NCBI RefSeq assembly: GCF_004366355.1
Contig: NZ_SODV01000002.1
Coordinates: 722,768-786,767, forward strand
Origin: Dinghuibacter silviterrae
GTDB taxonomy: Bacteria; Bacteroidota; Bacteroidia; Chitinophagales; Chitinophagaceae
Direction: 5' to 3'
DNA length: 64,000 nt
Each line of letters starts with the position of its first letter. The stretch's first letter is position 1. Under the pieces are notes generated by a model, which had not been told where the DNA came from, did no database searches, and saw nothing but the letters and a program-made list of their open reading frames with translations. A program made the position numbers and the translations under genes. Shown one piece after another: positions 13,417 through 16,077 of this stretch.

Positions 13417-14382
13417 ATGCGCGTTCGATCCCTTGTTTGCCTGGTGGCTCTGTTAGTGATGGCCGGATGTGGTGGCGGCAAAAAGAAGTTGGCGCCCGGG
13501 GAAGTCCCCGTGACGGTGGAGGACTTCCTGAAGCCCTTTCCCCAGATAAAAGTGCCCTACATATTTAGCGATTCCACCCTGGTCAGGCGATCCCCCGATT
13601 CCCTGAGGCTGCGTGTGTCCTCCTGGAAACAGCTCATCCCCGACAGTGTCTATGACGAAAACTTCGGGGGACAAACCGGTCTCCGGTTGTATGCCGTGGG
13701 CAAGATACAGGACAAGGAACGCAGGACCTATGTACTGGTCAAGGCCATCAGCGGCCAGGGGCGTACCGGTTATCTTTTTTATTTTGACAAGGCCAACAAG
13801 TTCGGGGGCGGGATGCGCCTGGTTGAAGCGGACGACGATACACACACGCGTTCGTATGGCAAACTGGACAACCGCATGAATGTCGCCCTGGTCATGGAAA
13901 CCCGCAAACCAGGCGGCTTTACGGCGGTTCGCGAAAGCATCTACGGGCTGTCCGACGAAGGGGGCTTCGCCCTTGTCATGACCAATTCCAACGAGGAATC
14001 GGCCGACCGGAAAGTGTACAACCCGATCGATACGCTGCCGCGGCGTTTCCGCCTCTCCGGGGACTACGGGGCCGGCAAGAACAACATCGTGTCCCTCCGG
14101 GATGGTGTGACGCCCAGGGAATATAGGTTTTTTATACACTTTATCAACGAAGAAGGGGAGACCCCCTGCAAGGGTGAACTGAAGGGGATAGCCGAAGTCA
14201 CAGGGGACAACAAGCTGAAATATTCGGACCGTGGCGGCCCCTGCGGGATCGAGTTCCACATCGATGGAAATGAGCTCTCCATCAGGGAAGTAGGAGGGTG
14301 TGGCGCCTACCGGGACGTGAGTTGTTTCTTTGAAGGAAACTACATTAAGAAAAAGTCACCTAAATCTAAAAAGAAAAAATAA
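13417..14382 (+). CDS. Lipoprotein of unknown function
   Basis: A 321-residue protein with signal peptide and lipobox VMAGC (Cys18), followed by GGGKKK. It should be anchored in the outer or inner membrane. The body is rich in beta-type sequence (for example GLRLYAVGKIQ, RTYVLVKAIS and TGYLFYFDKANK) and the C-terminus is very basic (KKKSPKSKKKK). I recognise no domain. The gene lies between the divergent mntR promoter and the glucan phosphorylase homologue, 39 bases upstream of the latter. TATCTTAG at 13390-13397 is a one-mismatch -7 element. Confidence 0.7.
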   Translation: MRVRSLVCLVALLVMAGCGGGKKKLAPGEVPVTVEDFLKPFPQIKVPYIFSDSTLVRRSPDSLRLRVSSWKQLIPDSVYDENFGGQTGLRLYAVGKIQDKERRTYVLVKAISGQGRTGYLFYFDKANKFGGGMRLVEADDDTHTRSYGKLDNRMNVALVMETRKPGGFTAVRESIYGLSDEGGFALVMTNSNEESADRKVYNPIDTLPRRFRLSGDYGAGKNNIVSLRDGVTPREYRFFIHFINEEGETPCKGELKGIAEVTGDNKLKYSDRGGPCGIEFHIDGNELSIREVGGCGAYRDVSCFFEGNYIKKKSPKSKKKK

Positions 14383-14421: not shown

Positions 14422-16077
14422 ATGAGTTTTTCGAATTTCAGGGTGCCTTATTCCATCGATGAACGCTACAGTAAGAAGATCGCCTATTTTTCCATGGAGT
14501 TTGCTGTTCACCAGCCCCTGAAGATTTATAGCGGTGGTTTGGGTTTCCTGGCAGGCTCTCATCTGCGCGCAGCTTATGACCTGCGTCAGAACATGATTGC
14601 CGTCGGGATCTTGTGGAAGTATGGATATTATGACCAGGCTCGTAACCAGGACCAGACGCTGCAGGTGCAGTGGAACGAAAAATTGTACAGTTTCCTGGAG
14701 GACACGGGGATCAAATTCCAGATCCTCATCCATGACGCCCCTGTTTGGGTAAAGGTGTGGTACCTCAACCCGGAAACCTTTCAGTCGGCCCCGCTTTTCC
14801 TGTTGAGCACCGACGTTCCCGAAAACGACTATGTTTCCCAGACCATCACCCACCGGCTGTACGACGCCAATGTAGCCACCAAGGTCGCCCAGTTTATCCT
14901 GTTGGGGATCGGCGGCGCCAAGTTGATCGACGAGCTGGGTTTTAATCCAGACCTGTATCACCTGAACGAAGCCCATGGGGTATCCTCCGTGTTCTATCTC
15001 TATAAGAAGTTCGGAAGCAAGGAAGAAGTCCGGAAGCGTCTTGTGTTCACGACCCATACCCCCGAAGAAGCCGGGAACGAAAAACACGACCTCCAGCTTT
15101 GTTATAAAATGACCTATTTCAACGGCCTGCCCCTGGACGAGGTCCGCACGCTTTGCGGCATCCAGGGGGACGAACCGTTCAACCATTCCCTGGTGGCCCT
15201 GCGTTTCGCACACCTGGCCAACGGGGTGTCCCAACTGCACGGGGAAGTCGCGCGGCACATGTGGAGCAAGTACCAAGGCATCTGCCCGATCATTGCCATC
15301 ACCAACGCCCAAAGCTGGCGGTATTGGGCCGACAAACAGCTCTATCGTTTTTCGGATGAAGGCGCCGACGACCGTTTCGACGACCGCAAACGCCACCTGA
15401 AAAAACGCGCGTTCGAACTTGTCGCCGACCAGACCGGCAAGTGGTTTAACCCGGACGCGCTGACCATCGTATGGGCCCGCCGTTTTGCAGGGTACAAACG
15501 CGCCGAATTGCTGACCAGGGACCTGAGGCGTTTCGAGGCGATGATGAACCACCCCAAGCACCCCGTCCAGTTTATCTGGGCTGGAAAGCCCTACCCGGTG
15601 GACTATCCCGCCATCAGCGACTTCAATAACCTCGTCCATCTCAGCAAGCAATACAAAAACATGGCCGTATGCATCGGGTACGAGCTGACGGTGAGCAAGC
15701 GTCTTAAACAAGCCGCCGACATCTGGCTCAACAACCCGCGCGTCCCCCGGGAAGCGTCCGGCACCAGCGGCATGACCGCGGCCATGAACGGCGCCGTCAA
15801 CCTGTCGACGAACGACGGCTGGATACCTGAGTTTATCAATTCCGGCAACAACGGGTTTGTCGTCCCTCCCGCGGACTACACCAATATGAACGTACACGAC
15901 CAGGACGAATACGACCTGGAACAACTGTACCAGATCCTGGAGCAGCAGATCCTCCCGCTCTACTACGAGCAAAAGGACACCTGGCGCCAGATCATCAAAA
16001 ACGGGATGAACGACGTGCGTTTCCAGTTTGACGCGAGCCGCATGGCCCACGAGTACTACGAGAAACTCTATGCATAA
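14422..16077 (+). CDS. Alpha-glucan phosphorylase homologue (short GT35-type) without the PLP lysine
   Basis: A 551-residue protein related to the compact alpha-glucan phosphorylases, far shorter than the roughly 800 residues of GlgP/MalP. Recognisable parts are KIAYFSMEFAVHQPLKIYSG at the N-terminus, LNEAHGVSSVF, TTHTPEEAGNEKHD, and EASGTSGMTAAMNGAVNLST (445-464). In GT35 enzymes the last motif reads G-T-x-x-M-K and its lysine holds the essential PLP; here that position is Thr452 (codon ACC, 15775-15777). The protein may therefore not be a PLP phosphorylase but a glycosyltransferase-like or glucan-binding derivative. Downstream thioesterase and MFS genes follow at 27 and 15 bases, suggesting one transcript. 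Confidence 0.85.
   Translation: MSFSNFRVPYSIDERYSKKIAYFSMEFAVHQPLKIYSGGLGFLAGSHLRAAYDLRQNMIAVGILWKYGYYDQARNQDQTLQVQWNEKLYSFLEDTGIKFQILIHDAPVWVKVWYLNPETFQSAPLFLLSTDVPENDYVSQTITHRLYDANVATKVAQFILLGIGGAKLIDELGFNPDLYHLNEAHGVSSVFYLYKKFGSKEEVRKRLVFTTHTPEEAGNEKHDLQLCYKMTYFNGLPLDEVRTLCGIQGDEPFNHSLVALRFAHLANGVSQLHGEVARHMWSKYQGICPIIAITNAQSWRYWADKQLYRFSDEGADDRFDDRKRHLKKRAFELVADQTGKWFNPDALTIVWARRFAGYKRAELLTRDLRRFEAMMNHPKHPVQFIWAGKPYPVDYPAISDFNNLVHLSKQYKNMAVCIGYELTVSKRLKQAADIWLNNPRVPREASGTSGMTAAMNGAVNLSTNDGWIPEFINSGNNGFVVPPADYTNMNVHDQDEYDLEQLYQILEQQILPLYYEQKDTWRQIIKNGMNDVRFQFDASRMAHEYYEKLYA

Follow-up and report, generated by a model that had tools for sequence, protein, structure and literature searches.

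One defining feature of GT35 phosphorylases is a PLP-binding lysine in an EASGTxxxK motif, the position taken in the E. coli enzyme MalP by K646 (PMC11046441). An archaeal exception has been described: a review (PMC12267944) says that the glycogen phosphorylase of Methanococcus maripaludis does not need PLP, and this reported independence of PLP is the feature in which the archaeal enzyme may resemble the proteins discussed below. An earlier note on the present DNA had taken it as established that PLP is essential for GT35 phosphorolysis; going by that review (PMC12267944), this may not be absolute. By sequence, the solved structures closest to our protein are 9l6i and 20yr, both of the glycogen phosphorylase from Segatella copri. 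The S. copri enzyme 9l6i has the fold and the sugar- and phosphate-site residues in common with it, but compared with 9l6i and the TIGR02094 phosphorylases our protein has Thr/Ser for the PLP lysine, a rebuilt pocket and a new lysine, Lys429; compared with the 850-aa TIGR02094 forms, it also lacks their extra length. Within the library that we searched, no description of these proteins as lysine-less GT35 members turned up.

The protein is encoded in the window, by which we mean the whole 64,000-nucleotide stretch of Dinghuibacter silviterrae DNA that was analysed. Its open reading frame (14422-16077, + strand) has no internal stop and translates into 551 aa, which score 444.4 bits against TIGR02094 (curated cut-off 191.7), within that family, and 46.8 bits against the GT5 glycogen synthase model TIGR02095, below the curated cut-off of 328 and outside that family. 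The phosphate-site Arg and Lys, the active-site His and the EASG Glu of GT35 are all present (R354, K359, H212 and E444), but the PLP-binding lysine is not: translation confirmed the motif as E444-ASGTSGMTAAMN-G457, in which Thr452 (codon 15775-15777) aligns with K646 of E. coli MalP and K662 of E. coli GlgP. Judged by its sequence, the label "PLP-dependent phosphorylase" thus fails in one tested defining feature, the canonical lysine, because Thr452 replaces it. The features referred to in the text are the following.

13417..14382, + strand: open reading frame directly upstream, lipoprotein-like by eye, no Pfam match
14422..16077, + strand: TIGR02094 (GT35-like) protein of 551 aa, Thr in place of the PLP lysine (translation, HMM, alignment, AlphaFold, fold match)
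14533..14544, + strand: G38-G-L-G41 loop, kept (127/127 rows)
15055..15057, + strand: His212 (position of MalP H346), kept (130/130 rows)
15304..15312, + strand: N295-A296-Q297, where TNG[VI] of phosphorylases has become TN[AS]Q
15481..15498, + strand: stretch with R354 and K359 (MalP R535/K540), both kept (130/130 rows)
15676..15708, + strand: rebuilt segment G419-Y-E421-L-x-x-S425-x-x-x-K429
15706..15708, + strand: Lys429, which may serve as a replacement PLP lysine or bind an anion, on predicted helix 422-431
15751..15792, + strand: EASGTSGMTAAMNG motif, residues 444-457, kept apart from Thr452
15775..15777, + strand: codon of Thr452, the position of MalP K646 (translation, alignment, residue counts)

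Extent and origin of the threonine/serine form

The replacement is shared by a whole clade. Among 127 distinct clade proteins (48 to 100% identical), the PLP-lysine position holds Thr in 124, Ser in 3 and Lys in none, whereas all 52 distinct TIGR02094 proteins outside the clade (hereafter Lys forms) have Lys there. In alignment rows, this corresponds to 130 clade rows (127 Thr and 3 Ser) and 57 other TIGR02094 rows, all Lys; not included are the window gene's three copies (L001, L084 and L085), a truncated clade row with Thr (L107), the E. coli proteins MalP and GlgP and a partial Lys row (L148). The clade proteins diverge to 48% identity, and the nearest Lys form is 41% identical. When the motif was read across 114 scanned loci, Thr was found in 112/112 motif rows, 3 of them being the window gene, and the 2 loci without the motif were the two GT5 synthase loci; a further ring of 16 loci (L115-L130, 51 to 56% identical) contained 13 with Thr and 3 with Ser (L116, L122 and L129). 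The contrast between Thr/Ser in 127/127 clade proteins and Lys in 52/52 proteins outside goes far beyond chance and means that Thr452 is no sequencing error. Together with the low dN/dS reported below, the 127/127 count leaves virtually no room for a sequencing error, a private mutation or a decaying gene. The observation from which the earlier note had started, Thr452 at the PLP-lysine position, is therefore borne out by translation, by alignment with MalP K646 and by the 127 clade proteins.

When bacterial and archaeal genomes were scanned, at least 594 relatives were confirmed and the best 80 loci were read; the clade is thus probably large. In the window's phylum, 309 of 395 genomes had a match, and the matches read at no more than 39% identity carry Lys. 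Sampling beyond the search of this phylum consisted of plasmid records: 54 had a match, and the 13 opened comprised 2 clade members (from Pontibacter and Runella) and 11 proteins with Lys. Intermediates, having Thr but lacking K429 or combining Lys with this second lysine, K429, were absent among the 127 and 52 distinct proteins. Two relatives of the window gene come from records with unexpected titles, L002 (Beijerinckiaceae, 86% identical) and L052 (Williamsia, 77% identical); these are probably mislabelled bins, the remaining titled clade loci bearing Bacteroidota names. Relatives also occur in 6 phage records, every one of them less than 60% identical, and 3 pattern matches on viral contigs yielded no confirmed relative.

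Columns 296, 297, 421, 425, 429 and 452 were excluded from a 62-row tree, in which the 32 Thr/Ser rows form a single clade (SH-aLRT 100) whose stem measures 1.3 substitutions per site, and their sister is a short Lys form, L131 (support 98). On this tree, the Thr clade arises once, from short Lys-bearing phosphorylases, although the evidence for the deeper branching order is only moderate because the tree method was quick. In 195 genomes of L131's class, at least 151 had a match; the 29 of the best loci that were read all carry Lys452, their residue 429 being V, T or I, again with no intermediate. They added four short Lys forms, L179-L182 (families f44 and f54), which are near relatives of L131 (82 to 63% identical) with ordinary residues at the main pocket sites, yet have W65 and H222 in common with the clade.

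Such short forms bear on a second argument of the earlier note, which had counted the 551-aa length against a normal phosphorylase. Lys-bearing TIGR02094 forms that measure 545 to 631 aa from the first Met occur both on plasmids (Alphaproteobacteria, Gammaproteobacteria, Cyanobacteria and Chlamydiota) and elsewhere in the window's phylum, in other genomes, so shortness does not mark a non-phosphorylase and that argument falls. These forms (L131 and L179-L182; L167-L172 and L175 on plasmids) have a few neighbour genes in common with the clade and differ from it in Lys452 and in ordinary pocket residues (TNG[VI] and D46). L174, tallied with them in the residue counts, is not treated as a short form because its annotated protein has 870 aa.

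Selection was gauged in 14 listed pairs of closely related genes (amino-acid identity above 0.84). In 5 of them, dN/dS was 0.011 to 0.033, with dS of 0.69 to 3.4, so that several of the valued pairs are near saturation; the other 9, the window's own pair among them, were saturated. With its open frame and these values in 5 clade pairs, the gene is not degraded, as the earlier note had maintained. A long stem followed by conservation and low dN/dS is what one expects of a function that changed yet stayed under selection, and the loss of the lysine is old, fixed in the clade and accompanied by a rebuilt pocket. These same traits support the claim of the earlier note that this is not a normal GT35 phosphorylase.

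Residues kept and replaced around the PLP site

H212, N295, R354, K359, K389 and E444 are invariant in 130/130 clade rows; N182, H185, S446, G447 and T448 are also kept in every clade row counted; and position 353 (K534 in MalP) is Arg in 124/127 and Lys in 3/127 clade proteins, with Arg in the Lys forms too. Other sites set the clade apart. S46, V350 and I398 are fixed or nearly fixed where Lys forms have D, mostly G and mostly K, respectively, and the clade has P390-Y391 (mostly AH in Lys forms), G419 (mostly N/D), E421 (mostly D/N), S425 (mostly G/A), F471 (mostly G/A) and F479 (mostly W). R443 is present in 117/130 clade rows, against mostly L/Y/M, and position 297 is Q in 130/130 clade rows and V/I in 57/57 Lys-form rows. 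A filter for clade-specific residues returned 28 sites, Thr452 included; K429, a 29th, was missed by it because Lys forms vary at this position (V/T/I/F), although Lys is found there in 130/130 clade rows and 0/57 Lys-form rows. The description of the rest of the protein as intact in the earlier note accordingly stands for EASGTSG, His212 and the GGLG loop, and does not stand for the 27 further clade-specific replacements and Lys429; E215 and H222 lie within the His region.

To relate these sites to the cofactor, we took 16 positions to be PLP contacts of rabbit phosphorylase. Four of the 16 are among the 28 clade-specific sites (hypergeometric p 0.006) and, leaving out Thr452, 3 of 15 (p 0.03). 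The counterpart of S425, A653 in rabbit phosphorylase, is a PLP contact. The pocket surrounding the cofactor was replaced on one branch while the sugar- and phosphate-site residues checked stayed. The fixed loss of the Schiff-base lysine, the kept catalytic partners and the rebuilt pocket together argue for a working enzyme with altered use of a cofactor or donor.

The opposite view, a catalytically dead protein that binds glucan or regulates, could appeal to the missing lysine, without which ordinary GT35 catalysis does not work. Across 127 distinct proteins, however, the remaining residues checked at the catalytic and phosphate sites do not vary, and a dead protein would have no need of them; this invariance makes a pseudoenzyme look the least likely of the readings considered, and we regard it as quite improbable. 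The earlier note had offered two interpretations, a PLP-free glycosyltransferase and a regulatory glucan-binding protein: the departure from a normal phosphorylase holds and a glycosyltransferase is compatible with the data, but the regulatory role is disfavoured by the invariant catalytic-site residues (130/130 rows).

Whether "PLP-free" applies hinges on Lys429, which is invariant, specific to the clade and, lying on the preceding helix, could substitute for the canonical lysine. PLP might then be retained through this relocated lysine, or noncovalently, and the enzyme would still be a phosphorylase. The distribution of K429 (every clade row, no Lys-form row), its place four residues past S425, the counterpart of a PLP contact, and the retention of R354, K359 and K389 all fit such a move. 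Many sites changed on the same branch, though, seemingly more than a moved lysine needs, and we consider this reading rather unlikely.

Fold comparison and the transferase reading

The AlphaFold2 model of the window protein (mean pLDDT 94.6, pTM 0.93) is confident and predicts a GT35 catalytic-domain fold, in which K429 falls in helix 422-431 and Thr452 in helix 448-455. Its best solved match is phosphorylase 9l6i (Z 36.1, rmsd 1.9, 533 aligned residues, 33% identical), and it also matches E. coli glycogen synthase with ADP, 2qzs (Z 31.9, rmsd 3.0, 439 aligned residues, 16% identical). The model of the sister Lys form (mean pLDDT 87.7, pTM 0.88) gives Z 36.2 against 9l6i and Z 33.0 against glycogen synthase; as both models match phosphorylase and glycogen synthase alike, the fold comparison cannot separate the two mechanisms. 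The same holds for the GlgA HMM, which matches 22/28 clade members and 9/28 Lys forms but does not separate the two sets, since it gives nearly equal scores to the sister Lys form (41 bits) and the window protein (47 bits). The GT5 glycogen synthase GlgA has the GT-B fold too, and at the level of residues it resembles the window protein in G419-Y420, in S425 and in the equivalent Arg, Lys and Glu. Most clade-specific residues do not match glycogen synthase, the clear matches being G419 and S425, which are rare in Lys forms (2/28 and 1/28), and the TN[AS]Q of the clade is unlike both phosphorylase and glycogen synthase.

Of the readings considered, we rank a nucleotide-sugar transferase first, PLP-independent phosphorolysis second, PLP on Lys429 third and a pseudoenzyme last. 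Our first choice, a tentative one, is that a phosphorylase lineage became, on one branch and via a rebuilt PLP pocket, a cofactor-free, nucleotide-sugar-dependent retaining glycosyltransferase. The clade, a single-origin, lysine-less offshoot of the TIGR02094 phosphorylases, would be an active retaining GT-B enzyme with no PLP bound through the canonical Schiff base. The site of the PLP phosphate would instead receive the diphosphate of ADP-glucose, UDP-glucose or a nucleotide sugar with a related hexose, and the sugar would pass, with retention, to an acceptor, either an alpha-glucan or something smaller; the enzyme would use its equivalents of the Arg, Lys, Glu and His that glycogen synthases employ. 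In its favor we count the single change on the 62-row tree with Lys in 0/127; the long stem with conservation and low dN/dS after it; the catalytic- and phosphate-site residues kept in 130/130 rows, alongside the altered PLP contacts and the G419/S425 match; and the confident fold with its glycogen synthase match, together with the GlgC correlation described below. This evidence is indirect, and the nucleotide binding is putative. If the transferase reading is true, a phosphorylase would here have reverted to a transferase.

Genome context and gene neighbors

The window's own genome (4 contigs, 99.98% complete) contains no other PF00343 match. Its glycogen locus lies elsewhere, with a GlgA-type GT5, GlgC, a GH77 with CBM20, a ROK kinase and a cyclomaltodextrinase-type GH13 within 13 kb. 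A gene near 3.748 Mb of contig C1 (L136:8104-8922) encodes 273 aa with only the N-terminal GT5 domain PF08323 (170 bits), and PMC11046441 describes Bacteroidetes as keeping a GlgA-GT5 fragment.

In a sample of 198 genomes of the class, 36 had a PF00343 match and 17 of these the Thr/Ser form, a count that may be low, as some clade genes score near the cut-off and the other 19 genomes were read in part. GlgC, the enzyme that makes ADP-glucose, was found (E <1e-70) in 8/17 clade genomes and 12/181 others, one partial gene being counted (Fisher p 4e-5, kinship ignored). This is the correlation credited to the transferase reading above; the 9/17 clade genomes without GlgC count against it. No second PF00343 gene was found in the 17 clade genomes of the sample, and clade genes being their only PF00343 matches speaks for a different alternative: a phosphorylase that cleaves alpha-1,4-glucan with phosphate independently of PLP, a second phosphate or the new positive charges of K429 and (in most members) R443 replacing the phosphate of the cofactor. 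The kept phosphate- and sugar-site residues and the M. maripaludis precedent, as described in that review (PMC12267944), also agree with it. The lack of a second GT35 is weak evidence, however: with other PF00343 genes in 19/198 genomes, by our own estimate only about 1.6 would be expected.

Gene neighbors add little. A targeted neighbor scan of low sensitivity found GlgX, GlgB, GlgA, GlgC, MalQ, GH57 and phosphoglucomutase at 0/126 clade loci, phosphoketolase at 3 and type II GAPDH at 1, compared with GlgX at 3, GH57 at 1, phosphoglucomutase at 1, phosphoketolase at 2 and type II GAPDH at 3 of 28 Lys loci. Of the loci scanned, 30/126 clade loci are shorter than 5 kb, and plasmids were the chosen source of 11/28 Lys loci; several of the queries were themselves taken from those same loci. 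The scan also overlooked the annotated phosphoglucomutase of L173, whose E of 4e-14 fell short of the 1e-15 limit, and the annotated DUF1622 genes of L167 and L172. Because the loci are short and plasmid-picked and the scan insensitive, we do not count the contrast between clade and Lys loci as support. Within these bounds, the lack of a glycogen-breakdown gene at the clade loci weighs against PLP-independent phosphorolysis, whereas the phosphoketolase and type II GAPDH neighbors common to clade and Lys forms at a few loci favor it and hint at the same pathway for both, which counts against the transferase reading. On balance, we hold PLP-independent phosphorolysis to be possible but unlikely. 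The neighborhood is mostly uninformative on function; the lipoprotein-like gene and mntR/mntH-like genes (names given by eye) are neighbors in 67/139 GT35 loci compared, a set that includes Lys loci and three repeated contigs.

These results also matter for annotation. Two plasmid records annotate clade members as "glgP, alpha-glucan family phosphorylase", and clade genes thus bear the name of phosphorylase although they are devoid of the residue on which the PLP mechanism depends; reconstructions of glycogen metabolism for Chitinophagaceae and their relatives may therefore be wrong. The clade also offers a natural experiment in cofactor replacement within the GT-B fold, with one event, a sister that keeps the lysine and a short list of residues that can be swapped. 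Among minor observations, L124, L125, L128, L165, L167-L172 and L175 have at least one of phosphoketolase, type II GAPDH, DUF1622, a cation P-type ATPase and GlgX nearby; these short GT35 genes, Thr and Lys alike, perhaps belong to a roaming carbohydrate/stress cassette. In Runella rosea, a gene annotated with the broad family name "pyridoxamine 5'-phosphate oxidase family" (L166:8642-9082) starts 30 bases after the Thr-form gene.
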